Shown here piece after piece: positions 14,180 to 29,776 of a stretch of 33,302 bases of DNA. The stretch covers positions 1 to 33,302 of the forward strand of contig NZ_VWNB01000017.1 in assembly GCF_013387475.1 (NCBI RefSeq). Reading direction: 5' to 3'. The position numbers were made by a program, and so were the translations under genes. A model generated the notes under the pieces. That model was not told where the DNA came from. It was given only the letters and a program-made list of their open reading frames with translations, and ran no database searches. Position 1 is the first letter of the stretch. Each line of letters opens with the position of its first letter. The stretch is from Mariprofundus sp. KV (lineage in GTDB: Bacteria; Pseudomonadota; Zetaproteobacteria; Mariprofundales; Mariprofundaceae).

Positions 14180-16276
14180 ATGCTCGATCTGCGCCGCATT
14201 TTACAGGCTATTGTTGCCACCACCCTGCTGCTTGCCGCAACAGCCTCCAACGCCGCCCCTGTAGATATTTCAGCCGATGAGATCTCGCGCAGCAGTGATG
14301 GTGTCATCACCGCCAGAGGCAATGTGATCATCAAACGGGAGCGCGAGACACTGCGTGCCGATGAGGTACTCTATCGCAGCGAACAGCAGATTCTCGAGGC
14401 GCGTGGCCATGTGGTGATTGAGTCGCCACAGGCAACCATTCAAGCCGAAGATGCCATCATGCAGGCCAACAGCAAAACAGGAGAGATGAACAAGGCGACA
14501 ATCATGCTTCCCGATGGTTCCCGTCTGGTTGCAGCGCGGGTGAAGCGCATTGATGACCAGCGCTTTGAGGCTGAAGAGCTGACCTATTCAGCCTGCCCGA
14601 TTGATGAAGAGTCATGGTCTATCGCCGCCAGCAAAGCGGAACTTGATCAGCAGGAGGGCTCGCTGACTGTACAGCACAGCAGATTTCAACTCTTGGGGGT
14701 GCCTGTACTCTACGCCCCCTGGTGGCAGCAACCACTACGCCGCAAATCAGGACTGCTTATGCCCAAGGTCGCATCCGGCAAGCGGCGCGGCACTGAGGTG
14801 GCCCTGCCGCTCTATCTGGCTGTTGACCCAAGCTGGGATTTCACGGCCACCCCACACTGGATGAGTGCGCGTGGCGTGATGGGCACGGGCGAATTGCGCC
14901 ACATCTCCGGCCTGGGCTCTGAACGACTACAGGCCGCCTGGATTGATGATGCTGAACTCAACAGACAGCGCTACCGCTTTGATGGTGCAATCCACTGGGA
15001 TCTGCCTGCGAATTTCGCCTTTGATGCTGATGGCGACTTCGTCAGCGATCCCGATTATCTGGCCGATTATGATACCGGCGACAATATCAGCGCCTACTAC
15101 CTGACCAGTCACGCCACCCTTTCTCAGGGTTTTGATCTCAACACCTTCACGGGTGACTGGATGGTGCAGGCCAGACACCAGCAGAACCTGCTGCTGGCCA
15201 ACAACAAAACCACACTGCAGATACTACCTCGTGCTGAAAGCCGCATGCAGCTGGAGCTGCATCCGAATCTGCTGCTCCACTTTGACCAGCAGAGTACCCG
15301 TTTTGACAGAATTACCGGCGTCGATGGCGGACGCATGGATCTGCACCCCTACCTGGAGATTCCGTGGGAGCTTGGCGGCGGCGGCCTTGCAGCCAATATG
15401 CAGATTGGTGCCCGCCAGACACGCTACTGGCTGCAACAGAGTAACCTGACCAACACCAGACCTGTTCGCACAACGATTGAAGCCAATCTCGAACTGCGCA
15501 GCGATTTTGAACGCATCAGCGACAGCCGCAGCTGGCGTCATCTGATCTCACCCGTCATCCGCTATGATTATATCGATGCACCTGATCAGAGCGCACTGCC
15601 CAATTTCGATTCAGGCTTTGGAGGACTGAGCTGGAGCAATCTTCTTTCGGGTAATCGCTTTGTCGGTTATGACCGCATTGAGCGCAGCAATCGCATCTCT
15701 CTGGTTCTGGAGAACAGACTGCAGCACAAAGCGGATGTTGATCAGGCAGCCCGTGACCTGTTAATCCTTCGCGCCGGTGCAGCTTATGATCGACAAAGAA
15801 AAAGCGTTGATCCCGCCCTCCAGGCGGCAACGCCGCGTCCATTCTCCAACCTCCTGGCTGAGGTAATCCTGTCGCCTGTTGCCGGCCTGCATATTGCCGG
15901 CAGCGGCCAGTACAACCATGCGCAGCGCTACTGGGCTACAGGTTATGCTACAGCCGGTTACGCAGATGCGAGAGGTAATGGCCTGAACATCAGCTACGCC
16001 TACACCGATGCCCGATACACCACCCGCTCACAAACCGTCAGCGCAACGGCAAACATCCGACTGGCCAATCGCTGGCTTGCTGCAGGCACTTGGCAATATG
16101 ACACCCTGCTCAAGCTCTCCCAGCAGAGTTCGGTGACGCTGAAATACCAGCATCCATGCTGGACGCTGGGGGGAGAGGGCTACCGCACCAACCGCCGTAC
16201 AGGCACCACCAATGCTGCCAACTTTGGCTTCCGTATCTTGCTTGAATTCAAAGGACTCGGTAGCGTCGGTTCGTGA
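14180..16276 (+). CDS. lptD: LPS-assembly outer-membrane protein LptD
   Basis: Outer-membrane translocon that, with LptE, places lipopolysaccharide in the outer leaflet. The 698-aa precursor has a signal peptide (about 1-25, ending SNA-AP), a periplasmic OstA/LptA-like N-domain (about 30-140, with repeated beta segments such as ARGNVIIKR and ARGHVVIES), then the LptD beta-barrel with YAPWWQQPLRRKSGLLMP at its start. The last residues form a short beta-strand, NFGFRILLEFKGL. The whole mature protein has only two cysteines, C139 (SACPIDEESW) and C660 (HPCWTLGG), where E. coli LptD has four; one N-domain to barrel disulfide could still form. It is followed by surA and pdxA as in many gammaproteobacteria. 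Confidence 0.96.
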   Translation: MLDLRRILQAIVATTLLLAATASNAAPVDISADEISRSSDGVITARGNVIIKRERETLRADEVLYRSEQQILEARGHVVIESPQATIQAEDAIMQANSKTGEMNKATIMLPDGSRLVAARVKRIDDQRFEAEELTYSACPIDEESWSIAASKAELDQQEGSLTVQHSRFQLLGVPVLYAPWWQQPLRRKSGLLMPKVASGKRRGTEVALPLYLAVDPSWDFTATPHWMSARGVMGTGELRHISGLGSERLQAAWIDDAELNRQRYRFDGAIHWDLPANFAFDADGDFVSDPDYLADYDTGDNISAYYLTSHATLSQGFDLNTFTGDWMVQARHQQNLLLANNKTTLQILPRAESRMQLELHPNLLLHFDQQSTRFDRITGVDGGRMDLHPYLEIPWELGGGGLAANMQIGARQTRYWLQQSNLTNTRPVRTTIEANLELRSDFERISDSRSWRHLISPVIRYDYIDAPDQSALPNFDSGFGGLSWSNLLSGNRFVGYDRIERSNRISLVLENRLQHKADVDQAARDLLILRAGAAYDRQRKSVDPALQAATPRPFSNLLAEVILSPVAGLHIAGSGQYNHAQRYWATGYATAGYADARGNGLNISYAYTDARYTTRSQTVSATANIRLANRWLAAGTWQYDTLLKLSQQSSVTLKYQHPCWTLGGEGYRTNRRTGTTNAANFGFRILLEFKGLGSVGS

Positions 16277-16354: not shown

Positions 16355-16392
16355 GCTGACTTATGCCATTTGCAACACTCTGTGGAGGTTCC

Positions 16393-18087
16393 ATGCGTTT
16401 CACCATCTTGCTGACCGCGATCCTGATGACATGTTCAGCCGCAAAAGCGGAAACCTTTGACTCAATTGCAGCCGTCATCAACAACGAGGCTGTATCCTGC
16501 TACGACATCCAGCGTGATGCCGATACAATGCTTATGCAACTTAAGACAAGTGGTGTTGAGCAGCCCGCTTCACGTGATCAACTCACCAAGCGTGCACTTG
16601 AAAGCAAAATTGTTAAAACCATTCAGTTGCAGGAAGCAGCCATACTGGAGCTCAGAGTCAGTCGTGAAGAGGTTGAGCAGGCAGTCCAAAAGATGGAGAT
16701 GCAGAATAATCTGATGCCCGGCCAGCTTGAGCAGGCACTGGGCATGCAGGGAATGAGCTTTGACGATTACAAGCGCAATCTCAAAGAGCAGATTCTGATC
16801 GGCAAGCTGATTAACATTGCCGTGCGCAGTAATATCAAAATCAGTGAAGAGGCGTTGCGCGAGTACCATCGTAAATATCTCGCCAACCCTCAGCCACGCA
16901 GAGAGGTAGAGCTGGCACAGATATTCCTGCCACTACCAAGTGAACCGAGCCCTGCGCAGATCGCTGACGTGCGCAACAGTGCAAAAGCAATTCATGCCAA
17001 ACTTCTGGCCGGAAGCGATTTCAAACAGCTGGTCGCAGTCCACTCTGAGTCGCCTGATCGTGATCAGGGCGGCATCATGGGCTGGGTCATGGAGAGTGGC
17101 ATCGCCAAACGCTTCTCTCCGGCACTGGAGCTGCCTGTCGGGCAGATCACCCAGCCGATCCGCTCCCCTTCCGGCTTCCATATTCTTAAAGTGATGCAGG
17201 AGCGCTGGCAGGAGCCGGCACCGGCTGGCGAGAGTTATGAAGAGGTGCGTGCGCGCCATATTCTCCTCAAAGTTCCCTCCTTCAGTGATGAGAAGACCAG
17301 CGCAAAAATCCGCCAGCGTGCCGAAGAGATTGCCAAAGAGATGCAGGGTGCCAGCGAAGAGGAGTTCATCACCCGTGCCAAAGAGGCATCTCAGGGCCCC
17401 AGCGCCGGTAAAGGCGGTGACCTTGGCTGGTTCAGGCGCGGCATGATGGTTCCGGAGTTTGAAGAGGCCGCCTTTGCACTGGATGCCGGCGGCACCAGTG
17501 GCATTGTTGAATCCAGCTTCGGCCTTCACATTATCCGTACCGTTGCCAAGCGTAAGATTGACCCCAACTCACTGGAAGCGCACCGTGACAACATTACCCA
17601 GATTCTGACCAATGTGGAGATGCAGGAGCAGCTTCCGCGCTGGATGTCCGGCCTGCGTTCAAAAGCCAGGATTGAACTGCATGACTGCAGCAGTATGGAT
17701 GTCCTGCAGATCCCTTCACAGCCAGATACTGCAGTACAACAGGATGCACAGGAGCTGCTGAATACTGCAGAAGGGTGGCGCAAAGCATGGAGTGAGCGCG
17801 ATATTGAGGCCTATTTCTCCTTCTACTCACCCAAATTCTCCCCTGAAAAAAAAACTCTTGAGCAGTGGAAAAGCTATAAAAAAAAAGTTATTGGCAACAA
17901 ATCTTACATAAAAGTCTCGGTTACCAACGTCAGCATCAAGTTTAATGACGACAATGAGGCGTTTGTCGAATTTGATCAGCGCTATGAGTCCAACCGATTC
18001 ACATCAGAGGATCACAAACTGCTGATCATGGAGAAAAACGGCCCCAGGTGGCAAATCATTAAGGAGCTGGTTCAGGCTCAAAGCTAG
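16393..18087 (+). CDS. surA: SurA-type periplasmic peptidyl-prolyl isomerase with an extra C-terminal NTF2-like domain
   Basis: Periplasmic chaperone for outer-membrane proteins. The 564-aa protein is numbered from the ATG at 16393, chosen because GGAGG lies just upstream. It has a signal peptide (about 1-21, AAKA-ET), a SurA N-domain (DSIAAVINNEAVSCYDI onward, about 22-165), two parvulin PpiC domains (about 172-271 and 284-389, both with the GG-LGW/GWV and FGLHI/GFHIL segments), and a linker with a cysteine. Residues about 449-564 form an added domain with W-AWSERDIEAYFSFYSPKF, a central basic helix and the end VEFDQRYESNRF...RWQIIKE, typical of NTF2-like/SnoaL folds fused to L,D-transpeptidases (Cds6-C type). 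Usual SurA is about 430 aa. Two runs of nine As lie inside this extension. Confidence 0.93.
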   Translation: MRFTILLTAILMTCSAAKAETFDSIAAVINNEAVSCYDIQRDADTMLMQLKTSGVEQPASRDQLTKRALESKIVKTIQLQEAAILELRVSREEVEQAVQKMEMQNNLMPGQLEQALGMQGMSFDDYKRNLKEQILIGKLINIAVRSNIKISEEALREYHRKYLANPQPRREVELAQIFLPLPSEPSPAQIADVRNSAKAIHAKLLAGSDFKQLVAVHSESPDRDQGGIMGWVMESGIAKRFSPALELPVGQITQPIRSPSGFHILKVMQERWQEPAPAGESYEEVRARHILLKVPSFSDEKTSAKIRQRAEEIAKEMQGASEEEFITRAKEASQGPSAGKGGDLGWFRRGMMVPEFEEAAFALDAGGTSGIVESSFGLHIIRTVAKRKIDPNSLEAHRDNITQILTNVEMQEQLPRWMSGLRSKARIELHDCSSMDVLQIPSQPDTAVQQDAQELLNTAEGWRKAWSERDIEAYFSFYSPKFSPEKKTLEQWKSYKKKVIGNKSYIKVSVTNVSIKFNDDNEAFVEFDQRYESNRFTSEDHKLLIMEKNGPRWQIIKELVQAQS

Positions 18088-18088
18088 G

Positions 18089-19120
18089 ATGGCAGCGATT
18101 CAGATGAAACCCAGTTTAATTACCGTCGGCGAACCTGCTGGCATCGGCCCGGACTGCATCCTGCGTGCCTTTTCACAACACCCGCAAGCCTTTCAACATT
18201 GCATCATTGTCTCGCCAGCGAACTGGCTGGAAGATCGAGCCCGTGCAATCAATATACCTGTTCAGTTCAGGGTTTTCTCCTCACTGCACGAAGCAAGCAG
18301 CTATAAACCCGGCCCACATGAGCTCTGCCTCTGGAATCCGGTTCCGGACCATTTGCGTGGCACAGTGACTGCGGGAGTGCCGTCGACTTCAACCTCCCAT
18401 GCAGTCATTTGCTGTATTGAATCGGCCACCCGCGCCTGCTTAGCTGATGATGCGCAAGCACTGATAACCGGCCCGATTGAAAAAGCGATCCTGAAACGTC
18501 AGGGCTTCCAGTTTCCCGGCCACACCGAATTCCTCGCCCATCTCTCGCGCCGGGAACATGTCGAGAAAACAACCGATTTCGTCATGATGCTGGCCTCCGA
18601 TACGCTGCGCGTGGCGCTATTGACCACCCATATGGCCATCAGCGAAGTACCCGATGCCCTCTCGATTGAAGGCACCCTCGACTGCATTCGCATCGTAGAC
18701 CATGATCTGAAACAGCGTTTTGGCATCAGAGAGCCTCGCCTCGGCCTCTGCGGCCTCAACCCCCATGCCGGCGAGCAGGGCCACTTTGGCAAAGAGGAGA
18801 TTGAGATTCTGGCACCTGCAGCCCGGATTGCTGCGACAGAAGGGATCAACATCACCGAGCCGCTGCCAGCCGACACCCTCTTCTCTGCCAACAATCGCAA
18901 GAACTTTGATGCAATCATCTGCTGCTACCACGATCAGGCACTGATCCCGATCAAAGCCTTAAGTTTTGGTGATGCTGTGAATGTCACACTGGGTCTGCCT
19001 TTTGTGCGCACCAGTGTCGATCACGGCACTGCACTTGACCTCGTCGGTAGCCCGGACGTATCTTCTACAAGTCTTCTGGCCGCCATCGTCATGGCCAGAG
19101 ACATGTGCGACACGGCGTAA
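18089..19120 (+). CDS. pdxA: 4-hydroxythreonine-4-phosphate dehydrogenase
   Basis: NAD-dependent, metal-dependent enzyme of the DXP-dependent vitamin B6 pathway; it oxidises 4-phosphohydroxy-threonine ahead of ring closure by PdxJ. At 343 aa it is slightly longer than the E. coli protein (329). Family segments are visible: TVGEPAGIGPDCILRAF near the N-terminus, TGPIEKAILKRQGFQFPGHTEFLA with the metal/substrate histidine, THMAISEVPDALS, GLNPHAGEQGHFGKEE, and CCYHDQALIPIKAL with the catalytic-site histidine. The ATG at 18089 lies one base after the surA stop. An in-frame ATG five codons later (18104), with AGGATGG upstream, is an equally good start. In many gammaproteobacteria rsmA follows; here yqgE does. 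Confidence 0.96.
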   Translation: MAAIQMKPSLITVGEPAGIGPDCILRAFSQHPQAFQHCIIVSPANWLEDRARAINIPVQFRVFSSLHEASSYKPGPHELCLWNPVPDHLRGTVTAGVPSTSTSHAVICCIESATRACLADDAQALITGPIEKAILKRQGFQFPGHTEFLAHLSRREHVEKTTDFVMMLASDTLRVALLTTHMAISEVPDALSIEGTLDCIRIVDHDLKQRFGIREPRLGLCGLNPHAGEQGHFGKEEIEILAPAARIAATEGINITEPLPADTLFSANNRKNFDAIICCYHDQALIPIKALSFGDAVNVTLGLPFVRTSVDHGTALDLVGSPDVSSTSLLAAIVMARDMCDTA

Positions 19121-25632: not shown

Positions 25633-26625
25633 TCAACTGCGAGTGACTGCACAAGCTGACGTTCTCGGCCGCAGATGCAAGCGCCCCTGCCTGCGCTGCA
25701 GACGACAGCCGGAGAGATCGAGCCCGCCACGACCTCCGCGAGCCGTCCACTGCTCCACCAGCAGAATATGCCTGCGCCCGGGTGTCACCCCTTCACCCAG
25801 TGTTGCCACCATCATCCGCTGCAACACCCTGGCACGAATCGGCGCTGAACTGTTGGCCCATACCGCCCATGGCAGCACCATCAGGCCATCTTTACTGTTT
25901 GCAGCCTGAGCCAGAACAGCATCCGCACCAGCCTCCAGCTCTAAAGCCAGCCGCTGCGCCTGCCGCTGCCAGCGCAGAAACAGCTGTTGCGGATTCAGAC
26001 CCGTAGCGGCTATGCGCGGGAACAATTCGTGCCTGATGCGATTGCGCCAGATGGTCGTGTCGTGATTGCTGGGATCTTCAAACCACGTTACACCAGCCAG
26101 AGAGAGGGCCTCGCGCAGTGCGGTGCCGCCAATATGTAGCAGTGGCCGAATGATGCGCAACCCCTGATAGGTACGTTCAGACTGCATGCCGCGACAGCCA
26201 CCAGCCCCGGCCCCCTGCAGCAGCCGCATACAGACAGTCTCTGCCTGATCATCACGGTTGTGGGCCAGACAGAGGGTTGTGATACCGGACTCCCGACTCC
26301 ATGCCAGAAACTGCGCAAAGCGCCCCTCTCGAGCCTCCGCCTCACGATTGGTCTGGCCTGAAAAAGCGAGTCTGGCGCTGAAAAAAGGGATCTCCCAGCT
26401 TCTGGCCTGCTGCGCCAGTGCCTCACACTCCAGCTGCGAACTCTCTCGCCAGCCGTGGTCAACATGCCAGGCCTGCACATCATGACCTTTGGCTTTCAGG
26501 GCCAACAGCAGGGCCGTTGAATCTGCGCCGCCGGACCAGCCAACGGCCAGTTGATGCGGAAGTTCAGGAATTTCAGGATTGCTTAACCACGCTGTAAAGG
26601 TTGCAGATACTGCATCCAGCCTCAT
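25633..26625 (-). CDS. tilS: tRNA(Ile)-lysidine synthase
   Basis: Modifies the wobble cytidine of the CAU-anticodon isoleucine tRNA to lysidine, using lysine and ATP, so that it reads AUA. The 330-aa protein has the N-terminal ATP-pyrophosphatase domain with the PP-loop SGGADST (about 31-37), then WHVDHGWRESS, LAHNRDDQAETVCMRLLQGAGAGG (about 120-143), IIRPLL and the conserved FEDPSNHD with RNRIRHELFP (about 182-201). The C-terminal part is short compared with E. coli TilS (432 aa), so the second C-terminal tRNA-binding domain appears missing, as in several shorter family members. The start codon overlaps the stop of the upstream 741-aa gene by four bases (ATGA), implying translational coupling. 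ftsH follows after 216 bases. Confidence 0.94.
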   Translation of the reverse strand: MRLDAVSATFTAWLSNPEIPELPHQLAVGWSGGADSTALLLALKAKGHDVQAWHVDHGWRESSQLECEALAQQARSWEIPFFSARLAFSGQTNREAEAREGRFAQFLAWSRESGITTLCLAHNRDDQAETVCMRLLQGAGAGGCRGMQSERTYQGLRIIRPLLHIGGTALREALSLAGVTWFEDPSNHDTTIWRNRIRHELFPRIAATGLNPQQLFLRWQRQAQRLALELEAGADAVLAQAANSKDGLMVLPWAVWANSSAPIRARVLQRMMVATLGEGVTPGRRHILLVEQWTARGGRGGLDLSGCRLQRRQGRLHLRPRTSACAVTRS

Positions 26626-28847
26626 TGCCAGAGCATCAACCCCTGATCGACGATCCTGGCGGCAGCATCTGTATGCAGATCAAGCAGCTCATAGAGCTCA
26701 ACATTCACCCCGGCCAGTGTCGGTTTGCCGGCTTTCATCAGCACCCAGGGCGCCTTGCCTTCATCGCCATAGCGTTGAATCACCAACAGCTCCAGACCGC
26801 CAAGCGGCAGACGATAACCATCTAACACACCCTTCACCTGACTGACCGTGAGACGGAATTCACGGACGTCAGCTTTGTTCTTCAACATGCCGGTAAGCTC
26901 TCGCATCGCAGAACCGGTCAATGCCACGCCTTCGTTATGGACAATCTGAACGGTTTCGCCAGCCCCTGTTTTGATTGGCTCCACATTGACACGACCAACC
27001 GGAAACTGCCCCAGCTTCTCATCACGCGCACGCATCATGCGCGCCACACCGGCATCACGAACGATACCCGCCTCCACCTGCGGCACCGCCAGTGAAAATG
27101 CGATACGCTGCACACCCAGCTTGGCATGTTTCTGCTCGCTGAAGGTCCACTCGCCGGTCATATCCATACACATCGCCACAACAGGAAGGCTCGCCTCTTC
27201 AACCTCCTGATCAAGCTGACCGATAGTCTCCAGATAGAGGCGGCGCAGCCGCTCTCGCAGCAACAGGGCTGTTTCAGTCAACGCCAGAATGGAGCCGCGC
27301 AACACACAACCGGAACCGGAACACTCATCGAGAAAGAGATTCTCTTTGGCTTCAACAACAGAGAAGAGTGTTGGCATAAAACGATTCTCAAGAAAATGGG
27401 CAGCCTCGGAACCGGTTAATGCATGCATGCGCGCCAGATAATCCGACCACTCCACCCGCATGCAACCGTGGCGCAACGAGAGGGTTTTGCCACTATGCAG
27501 CGCTTTGGTGACATCCGGCTGAATCAGGACAAGTTCGCCCTCCTGCCAGCCCTTCTCAAGGGCCTTGTCGCCATCGACATTGCGTCCGCCACGCAAGCCA
27601 CCCTGCACGCGCAGCTCACTGATACCAACCAGACCACCACGTGATTTTCCGGCCGCAGCCAGATCGGCCTTGCGGTCCATCCAGGAGCGCTCGGCATTGC
27701 GGCGGGCGATCTCCACACGCACATCCTCATCGAAAACCCGGAACGCCAGCAGTGTAATCTTGTCGCGCAGCCACGGGTCGTCGGCATGTTTTGCAGCCCT
27801 GCCCCCAGCCATCTGAGAGAGCAGCCAGATCGCTACCGGCTCCTCACCGTTGGCACGCAAATCCTCAATGGCGGGTTCATCCAGTTTCACCTGTCCGGCC
27901 AGCAGCTGATCAAGCCGCTTGGCATCGAGCACCCAGCGCATCCAGAAGCCGTGGCCGGTTTTCATCGCCAGCTTCCAGAGCGAGAGCCTTGCCCAGGTGC
28001 GCCGCAGCATATGCTCACCAAGTTTCTCCTTGGCCAGCAGCGCCAGAATACCGCCCTCGTTTTTTGACCCGACCTTGGCAATCAGGTAACGCATCTGCGG
28101 CACAATTTCAGGCTCAAGGCCGTAGGTTCGAATCAGACGACTATCATCAGCCAGCAGAGGGGAGTCAGGCTGGTGATGGAGAAAGGCCATCGGCGTCGCC
28201 GGCAACATCATCGACTCATAATTGGAGATACGCGCCACCTCAACCACACCCTCAAGGTAGTGCTTGAGAAACTCCTGCAGCGCCCAGACATAGAGGCCAC
28301 CGACCACACAGAGCATCACATGGTTGGTGGTTGCACTCTCCTCATCAGGCAGTGAAGCGATAGCGGTTCTGATCAGGCGCAGCAGCAGCACATTAACAGC
28401 AGGCACCCAGGGTGCGGCATCCGCCTTGTCCTGTTTCCAGCCCTGCTCCCAAAGCACCTCACATACATTCAGCAGTGCGGCTGCCCCCTGTGGCTCTGCA
28501 CACCAGTGGTGCAGCAGATCGCGGGAGATATGCGGATTCTGCTTGCGCAGATAGGCCACCATAGCACGCACCCTGGCATCCATCGGCGGCAGCGTGTGGG
28601 CAGAGACCTTTTCACCGCGCACCATGTAACGGATGGCGTAATCCTGCAGCCTGCGCAGCGAGCCGGAGATCGCCTTCTCAACAGCCGCATCAACCGCATA
28701 AGGAATATACTCGCCGGCATCGCGACCCGACATGCGGATCGGCAGCCTGCGCACCTCTACAGCACAGCGGTCACCCGGCTGCTCCTGGCGATTGAGGATA
28801 GGCCGGTACCAGCTCCAGCGAAAATCAAAGTAATCCGGTGAAATCAT
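26622..28847 (-). CDS. Large cytosolic protein of unknown function, C-terminus faintly like a nucleotide cyclase
   Basis: A 741-aa protein that I do not recognise. It has no signal peptide, and hydrophobic stretches such as NHVMLCVVGGLYVWALQEFL (about 186-205) are short. Residues about 1-460 are mostly helical and rich in Arg, Leu, Trp and Ala; a basic Gly-rich patch GGLVGISELRVQGGLRGGRN lies near 408-427. Residues about 480-640 have an order of segments faintly like the second half of a class III nucleotide cyclase: LFLDECSGSGCVLRGSILALTETALLLRERL, then VVAMCMDMTGEW, then VARMMRARDEK. The metal-binding Asp pair of a working cyclase is not evident, so activity is doubtful. It is coupled to tilS by an ATGA overlap and lies divergent from znuA. 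Confidence 0.75.
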   Translation of the reverse strand: MISPDYFDFRWSWYRPILNRQEQPGDRCAVEVRRLPIRMSGRDAGEYIPYAVDAAVEKAISGSLRRLQDYAIRYMVRGEKVSAHTLPPMDARVRAMVAYLRKQNPHISRDLLHHWCAEPQGAAALLNVCEVLWEQGWKQDKADAAPWVPAVNVLLLRLIRTAIASLPDEESATTNHVMLCVVGGLYVWALQEFLKHYLEGVVEVARISNYESMMLPATPMAFLHHQPDSPLLADDSRLIRTYGLEPEIVPQMRYLIAKVGSKNEGGILALLAKEKLGEHMLRRTWARLSLWKLAMKTGHGFWMRWVLDAKRLDQLLAGQVKLDEPAIEDLRANGEEPVAIWLLSQMAGGRAAKHADDPWLRDKITLLAFRVFDEDVRVEIARRNAERSWMDRKADLAAAGKSRGGLVGISELRVQGGLRGGRNVDGDKALEKGWQEGELVLIQPDVTKALHSGKTLSLRHGCMRVEWSDYLARMHALTGSEAAHFLENRFMPTLFSVVEAKENLFLDECSGSGCVLRGSILALTETALLLRERLRRLYLETIGQLDQEVEEASLPVVAMCMDMTGEWTFSEQKHAKLGVQRIAFSLAVPQVEAGIVRDAGVARMMRARDEKLGQFPVGRVNVEPIKTGAGETVQIVHNEGVALTGSAMRELTGMLKNKADVREFRLTVSQVKGVLDGYRLPLGGLELLVIQRYGDEGKAPWVLMKAGKPTLAGVNVELYELLDLHTDAAARIVDQGLMLWQ

Positions 28848-28951: not shown

Positions 28952-29776
28952 ATGCGCCGCATGCAGAGAATTTTTAAAATGCGATGGCGACTTGTGGCAG
29001 CAGCCCTCTCCGTGCTACTGACCCCTTCATTTGCCCTGAGCGCAGGGATTGCCACCACACTGCCACCGCTGGCGGGGCTGGTGAAAATGCTCGATACCGA
29101 GAGTGAGGTGATCTGCCTGCTGCCTGCCGGCGCTGATCCGCACCACTTCCAGATGCAGCCGCGCACCATCGAGCGGCTGAGCAGAAGCAATCTGTTGATT
29201 CGCACCTCATTCGATGACGGCGGCTGGCCTCTGCCTGCGCATCATGACAACGTGCTCGACCTCTGGCCTGATAAGGATCACGGCTGGGTCAGCCCTGAAG
29301 AGGTGCGCCTGATCCTGCCGCGCATAGCCGAAGCCCTGATCAGACTGAAACCTGAACAGGCAGACGCCATCAACAGCAACCTGAGCAGAGCTGTCGCTTT
29401 AACCCACAGCATTGAAAAACAGTGGCAGCAGGCGCTCGCCCCGGCCAAAGCAGCCGGTATTATCATGCAGCACCCCTCCTGGCGCAGGCTGATGAACGAC
29501 ATGCAGGTGCCGATTCTCAATGTGCTGGAGTCCGGTCACCACGGCCATGAGCACGGCCCACATGCGCTCGATGATTCCCTGCATCAGCTTGATGAGCATC
29601 CCGATGCCTGGCTGATCAGCGATGCCGGACACAACAACAGGGCACTGGCCTGGCTGCAGCAGCATAGCGGGCAAGCAGTTCGCCATATCACGCTTGATGC
29701 CCTCTCCGACTGCGGCATAAGCTGGGATCAGATGATGCTGCAGAACCTGCAGCAGATCTCCGGAGTGAATCACTGA
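28952..29776 (+). CDS. znuA: Zinc ABC transporter substrate-binding protein
   Basis: Periplasmic metal-binding protein of the cluster A-I (ZnuA/TroA) type that hands zinc to the ZnuBC importer. The 274-aa precursor has a basic N-terminus and hydrophobic signal (about 10-30, ending FALSA-G). The metal-site segment GADPHHFQMQP (about 59-69, matching the usual ADPHxFxPxP) is present. A short His-rich loop GHHGHEHGPH (about 194-203), typical of zinc rather than manganese members, follows the segment MQHPSWRRLM. ATGs at 28952, 28961 and 28979 are all possible; none has a clear ribosome binding site. The stop shares one base with the znuC ATG (TGATG). Confidence 0.92.
   Translation: MRRMQRIFKMRWRLVAAALSVLLTPSFALSAGIATTLPPLAGLVKMLDTESEVICLLPAGADPHHFQMQPRTIERLSRSNLLIRTSFDDGGWPLPAHHDNVLDLWPDKDHGWVSPEEVRLILPRIAEALIRLKPEQADAINSNLSRAVALTHSIEKQWQQALAPAKAAGIIMQHPSWRRLMNDMQVPILNVLESGHHGHEHGPHALDDSLHQLDEHPDAWLISDAGHNNRALAWLQQHSGQAVRHITLDALSDCGISWDQMMLQNLQQISGVNH

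Follow-up and report, generated by a model that had tools for sequence, protein, structure and literature searches.

A SurA chaperone fused to a Cds6_C NTF2-like domain in Zetaproteobacteria: a candidate link between outer-membrane assembly and the cell wall

The surA Locus

SurA works in the periplasm as a chaperone and brings unfolded outer-membrane proteins to BAM. The window, which here means the whole stretch of 33,302 nucleotides that was analysed, comes from genome G000 (2.53 Mb, 28 contigs, 99.95% complete) and contains a surA gene between lptD and pdxA, the usual surA neighbourhood (Table 1). With its SurA_N domain, two parvulin domains, SurA fold, and this neighbourhood, the encoded protein is the SurA of the lptD-surA-pdxA operon. 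The two parvulin domains, which the first-pass annotation of this DNA had also named, correspond to two Pfam Rotamase stretches. Residue numbers follow the 574-residue open reading frame and are obtained from those of the AlphaFold2 model by adding 10. The probable start is the ATG at 16393, which is conserved in relatives and gives a protein of 564 residues with a putative signal peptide; by sequence comparison, the signal-like N-terminus is shared with these relatives.

Table 1. Features of the surA region of the window and proteins with Cds6_C domains in other genomes; positions without a locus name refer to the window.
Feature	Position	Strand	Genome	Remarks
lptD	14180..16276	+	G000	698 aa, ordinary length; same apparent operon, upstream of surA; Pfam LptD E 3.4e-47
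surA open reading frame	16363..18087	+	G000	574 aa, stop included, uninterrupted; putative signal peptide from the probable start ATG 16393, MRFTILLTAILMTCSAAKA
SurA_N chaperone domain	16459..16809	+	G000	residues 33-149; Pfam SurA_N E 3.4e-19
Parvulin domain 1	16897..17211	+	G000	residues ~179-283; approximate limits, from model secondary structure; Pfam Rotamase stretch
Parvulin domain 2	17257..17538	+	G000	residues 299-392; Pfam Rotamase, best of two Rotamase stretches
C-terminal helix and strand completing the SurA core	17542..17688	+	G000	model helix 394-424, strand 427-429; end at conserved Cys 442
Flexible, variable linker from SurA core to NTF2-like domain	17689..17754	+	G000	pLDDT <50 at model residues 436-445
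Cds6_C NTF2-like domain	17755..18066	+	G000	residues 465-568; Pfam PF24125, model, superposition
pdxA	18089..19120	+	G000	next operon gene after surA; Pfam PdxA E 1.9e-94
TolC-like outer-membrane efflux protein with Cds6_C	L147:2330-4252	-	G011	
TolC-like outer-membrane efflux protein with Cds6_C	L146:1970-3967	-	G042	
TolC-like outer-membrane efflux protein with Cds6_C, then SPOR	L145:1750-4539	-	G054	
LptD with Cds6_C insert	L138:3997-6822	-	G033	

The SurA core holds two cysteines, C46 (16498-16500) and C442 (17686-17688), that are invariant across 35 aligned zetaproteobacterial SurA sequences. Exactly two cysteines occur in 65 of 66 cores from this class and none in three SurA sequences from outside it. 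It is possible that C46 and C442 form a disulfide that closes the core. Elsewhere in the window, an open frame of 741 aa on the reverse strand (26622-28847) has no Pfam match and is divergent from zinc-uptake ABC genes (ZnuA-like, 28952-29776).

Identity and Fold of the SurA Tail

The first-pass annotation had described this SurA as fused, at 17740-18087, to an NTF2-like domain resembling those of some L,D-transpeptidases and TPR proteins. Both the profile search and the structure prediction that it had proposed bear this out. In Pfam, the tail matches Cds6_C (PF24125), with an E-value of 8.5e-21 when the whole protein is searched and of 2.1e-22 when the tail is searched by itself, and the score of 74.8 bits lies above the curated cut-off of 27; the matched stretch agrees with the earlier coordinates. 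The next matches of the tail (DUF4440, SnoaL_3, and CaMKII_AD) are weak, and all of them are NTF2-like. Every residue of the motifs quoted earlier is found in the tail (W472, W476, Y484, Y488, F492, Q539, Y541, W563, I565, and E568), and most belong to the positions that are invariant in an alignment of 26 sequences (W472, W476, Y488, F492, W502, Q539, K552, W563, I565, and E568). The best PDB profile matches of the domain are Bd1075 (1.7e-16), Csd6 (8.5e-12), and Pgp2 (1.2e-9).

The AlphaFold2 model was built with 35 aligned sequences and has a mean pLDDT of 85. Residues 436–445 of the model, which belong to the linker, are disordered, and residues 446–561 form three helices followed by four strands (HHH-EEEE), an NTF2-like fold with a pLDDT that is mostly 80–92. 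The SurA core superposes on 1m5y_B with a Z of 29.5 over 375 residues and on 9hg7_F with a Z of 28.3 and an rmsd of 2.7; on both SurA structures, the superposition extends to model residue 431. The tail superposes on Csd6 (Z 16.6, rmsd 2.4, 117 residues), Pgp2 (Z 16.2), and Bd1075 (Z 15.6), and because other NTF2-like proteins of little sequence identity reach a similar Z against it, the assignment to the Cds6_C family rests on sequence. The tail of SurA is confirmed in this way as a Cds6_C domain, the type of NTF2-like C-terminal domain that is found in Csd6, Pgp2, and Bd1075.

The Conserved Pocket

The NTF2 pocket of Pgp2 from Campylobacter binds peptidoglycan fragments, as demonstrated by NMR and pull-down experiments, and alanine mutants of its Y233, K257, and K307 match the deletion strain in how straight the cells are (PMC8038945). 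All five mutation-tested residues of Pgp2 are present in the SurA tail, where Y233, F242, K257, K307, and E324 align to Y484, F492, K506, K552, and E568, respectively; Y274 of Bd1075 aligns to Y541. Pocket residues of the SurA tail are Y484, Y488, F492, K506, Y541, K552, and E568. Across 40 SurA tails, K552, E568, Y488, and W476 are invariant, position 484 is a tyrosine in 39, and position 506 is a lysine or arginine in all. F492 is more variable: 28 of the 40 have phenylalanine, and V, H, or Q takes its place in some others. The mean conservation of eight pocket positions is 0.96, compared with 0.61 for the whole domain, and this value exceeds that of every one of 20,000 random sets of eight positions. 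The SurA NTF2 domains have a median pI of 9.2.

In Bd1075, the NTF2 domain targets the enzyme to the convex face of the cell, and the enzyme with its NTF2 domain is monomeric (PMC8938487). The localisation depends on a Bdellovibrio-specific C-terminal extension with W303, which is absent from the SurA tail: E568 is followed by LVQAQS and then the end of the protein, with no tryptophan. No Pfam match to the YkuD catalytic domain was obtained in the SurA-NTF2 protein. A link of the added domain to cell-wall or stalk machinery had been suggested in the first-pass annotation. This suggestion is partly supported. Its cell-wall half is a well-supported inference, given the peptidoglycan binding by the Pgp2 member of the domain family and the conservation of the pocket residues in the SurA tail; its stalk half is no more than suggestive, the tail being present also in genomes without a detected sfz cluster.

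Distribution, Descent, and Selection

The survey of SurA length covered 78 genomes of Zetaproteobacteria, 66 of which gave a readable SurA core for the tree. SurA-NTF2 is found in 40 of these 66 and in six genera, and the joined frame is open in all 40 genomes, which rules out a mis-joined or separate gene. On the SurA core tree, the presence and absence of the tail need eight changes. The tree of the short NTF2 domain needs six, three of which are forced by supported branches, so that the domain on SurA may have had one origin or several. The tail is not essential, as its several losses show. In genome G030, which is likely that of the stalkless Ghiorsea bivora TAG-1, surA is followed by a fossil of the domain that is broken by three in-frame stops (L032:2812-3201), and the domain is intact in the close relatives G079, G082, and G083. 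Where the domain is kept, all pairs tested show purifying selection on it: its dN/dS was 0.04–0.33 in 13 close pairs and at most 0.16 in 10 of them. The linker is looser and evolves faster than the SurA core and the NTF2-like domain on either side of it.

Among the matches listed from about 320 other Pseudomonadota genomes that were sampled, none was a SurA-NTF2 fusion; these were the best-scoring matches, with up to eight candidates scored per genome, and fusions rank at the top of the list. A contig search with the whole SurA matched SurA- and PrsA-like relatives, none of them to the end of the tail, and a plasmid search with the tail gave no match. No paper on a SurA with such a domain was found in literature whose coverage mostly leaves aside subscription journals.

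Cds6_C on Other Envelope Proteins

The Cds6_C domain is repeatedly joined to other envelope proteins. Cds6_C paralogues in the source genome (contigs C1 and C24) are 31–35% identical to the SurA tail. They are a YkuD L,D-transpeptidase (434 aa), a TPR protein (308 aa) encoded next to it, and a SPOR protein (413 aa), so the likeness to L,D-transpeptidase and TPR proteins that had been noticed earlier is found within the same genome. An M14-type zinc carboxypeptidase gene adjoins the Cds6_C-SPOR gene (L003:119-2169, contig C24), and the two products may form a wall-trimming pair. In other genomes, Cds6_C follows the channel domain of TolC-like efflux proteins, at or near the protein end. The LptD of genome G033 carries an in-frame insert in its N-terminal region that consists of a complete Cds6_C domain and two partial ones; the SurA of this genome also has the tail. 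As it comes from a single draft genome (87% complete, 120 contigs), the insert is a provisional finding. The lptD of the window is without a Cds6_C insert. The occurrence of Cds6_C on TolC-like proteins and in LptD was found here rather than taken from a paper.

Within the genus, both independent losses of the SurA tail coincide with the absence of all other Cds6_C genes. Nevertheless, the coupling of the tail to these genes is loose, because genus g10 has kept SurA-NTF2 but lacks every other Cds6_C gene, and 18 genomes combine other Cds6_C genes with a plain SurA. That the SurA copy is the only one in g10 also rules out that the tail strictly depends on the Cds6_C protein with the L,D-transpeptidase domain. 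After correction for descent, the class-wide association was not significant; Fisher tests (p 0.05 for the class and 4e-5 for the genus) were set aside, as the data hold two to six independent contrasts. It is a tentative and rather doubtful idea that Cds6_C serves in Zetaproteobacteria as a shared wall address, borne by wall-trimming enzymes, SurA, TolC-like channels, and LptD, which would bring wall editing, outer-membrane protein insertion, and the lipopolysaccharide and export machinery to one zone of the wall.

A Proposed Wall-Tethered Chaperone

The explanation that we favour, and hold to be fairly probable, is that SurA gained a peptidoglycan-binding Cds6_C module on a flexible linker. 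From the conserved pocket, we infer that the module would bind peptidoglycan as in Pgp2 and, once bound, would tether SurA, together with its clients, to the wall that lies between the inner and outer membranes. Spatial control of delivery could follow, with a preference for sites at which the wall exposes suitable chemistry. In E. coli, the maturation state of the wall controls the activity of BAM and where BAM works, and SurA itself has been assayed against sacculi (PMC9242858). A wall-reading chaperone is plausible because the state of the wall already sets where BAM works in that organism.

Alternative Explanations

The convex-face targeting by the NTF2 domain of Bd1075 (PMC8938487) raises the alternative that the tail addresses SurA to one side of the curved cell, which would place SurA and outer-membrane protein insertion at the wall-shaping face where the stalk leaves. 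The source genome has a complete sfz stalk cluster (contig C28, L142:3634-16159), and all 14 genomes with sfz2 and sfz3 close to this stalk-type set have the SurA tail. Conversely, the tail and every other Cds6_C protein are absent from G012 and G008, which are likely M. aestuarium CP-5 and M. ferrinatatus CP-8, dread-formers with closed genomes (PMC5513912, PMC8250860). The tail is also absent from G004 and G017, where sfz is partial or divergent, and is a fossil in the stalkless G030. However, the description of CP-5 and CP-8 is still that of rods with a slight curve (PMC5513912), the relatives of G030 keep the domain intact, and the W303 that targeting needs in Bdellovibrio is absent from the SurA tail. 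Several genomes, such as G028 and G031, have the tail with no detected sfz cluster, and G021 has it with a dread-type cluster only. There are just two independent contrasts, both of them losses, in the genus, and no test of stalk against tail was significant after correction for descent. The tail is therefore unsupported as a strict stalk marker, its link to the stalk is only suggestive, and one-face targeting appears unlikely to us.

Genomes G019 and G020 have two sfz2/sfz3 sets each, one of the stalk type and one resembling the dread type. The Sfz2 proteins of the likely CP-5 and CP-8 are 67–68% identical to the Sfz2 of the source genome; the published statement is <40% (PMC8250860).

Many NTF2-like domains form dimers or take up hydrophobic ligands, and in the one described here a flexible linker makes the connection to a chaperone. 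The tail might accordingly extend the chaperone, as a client-holding cradle or through SurA dimerisation, with no binding of peptidoglycan. This is an improbable reading, given that the charged wall-binding pocket is kept, with K552 and E568 in 40 of 40 tails, that Cds6_C also occurs on wall enzymes and SPOR proteins without a chaperone role, and that Bd1075 with its NTF2 domain is a monomer (PMC8938487). Binding of another envelope glycan, for instance exopolysaccharide or nonulosonic acid, was once proposed for Csd6, in which pseudaminic acid was docked (PMC4599014), and the basic pI of the SurA domains is like that of the Csd6 domain. NMR and pull-down experiments published later show that Pgp2 binds peptidoglycan (PMC8038945), and such a role for the SurA tail seems very unlikely. 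It is just as hard to believe that the tail is a neutral passenger of a gene fusion. Its repeated loss, with eight changes on the core tree and one fossil, would fit a passenger, but the purifying selection in all pairs tested, the conserved pocket, and the persistence across six genera would not.

It is an open question how bacteria coordinate the growth of the outer membrane with that of the cell wall; in E. coli, BAM is under the direct control of the wall (PMC9242858). If SurA is indeed tethered to peptidoglycan by its own wall-binding domain, this would be a second answer to the problem, one step before BAM, at the level of the chaperone. A physical tie between the cell wall and the assembly of the outer membrane may exist in many marine iron-oxidising bacteria.

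Comparison with Known Systems

The gene order lptD-surA-pdxA is the same as in E. coli. The protein also agrees with E. coli SurA (PDB 1m5y; BAM complexes 9hg7 and 8pz1) in its SurA_N domain, two parvulin domains, and core-closing C-terminal helix, with the core Z of 29.5 given above. It differs in that the E. coli protein ends after the core, whereas a linker and Cds6_C are added here. The conserved cysteine pair of the zetaproteobacterial core sets it apart from the three SurA sequences of other bacteria that were compared.

With the L,D-carboxypeptidases Csd6, Pgp2, and Bd1075 of Helicobacter, Campylobacter, and Bdellovibrio, SurA-NTF2 shares the C-terminal Cds6_C domain, its pocket residues, and its fold. 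Unlike these enzymes, it lacks the YkuD catalytic domain and bears the module on a chaperone. Any wall binding would thus position a chaperone and not an enzyme, because Cds6_C is attached to SurA. The TPR-Cds6_C, YkuD-Cds6_C, and Cds6_C-SPOR proteins of the source genome have the same module with different partners, namely TPR repeats, an L,D-transpeptidase, and SPOR. In the TolC-like efflux proteins with Cds6_C and the LptD with the insert, the domain is likewise found on outer-membrane assembly or export machinery; those are integral outer-membrane proteins, whereas SurA is a soluble chaperone.
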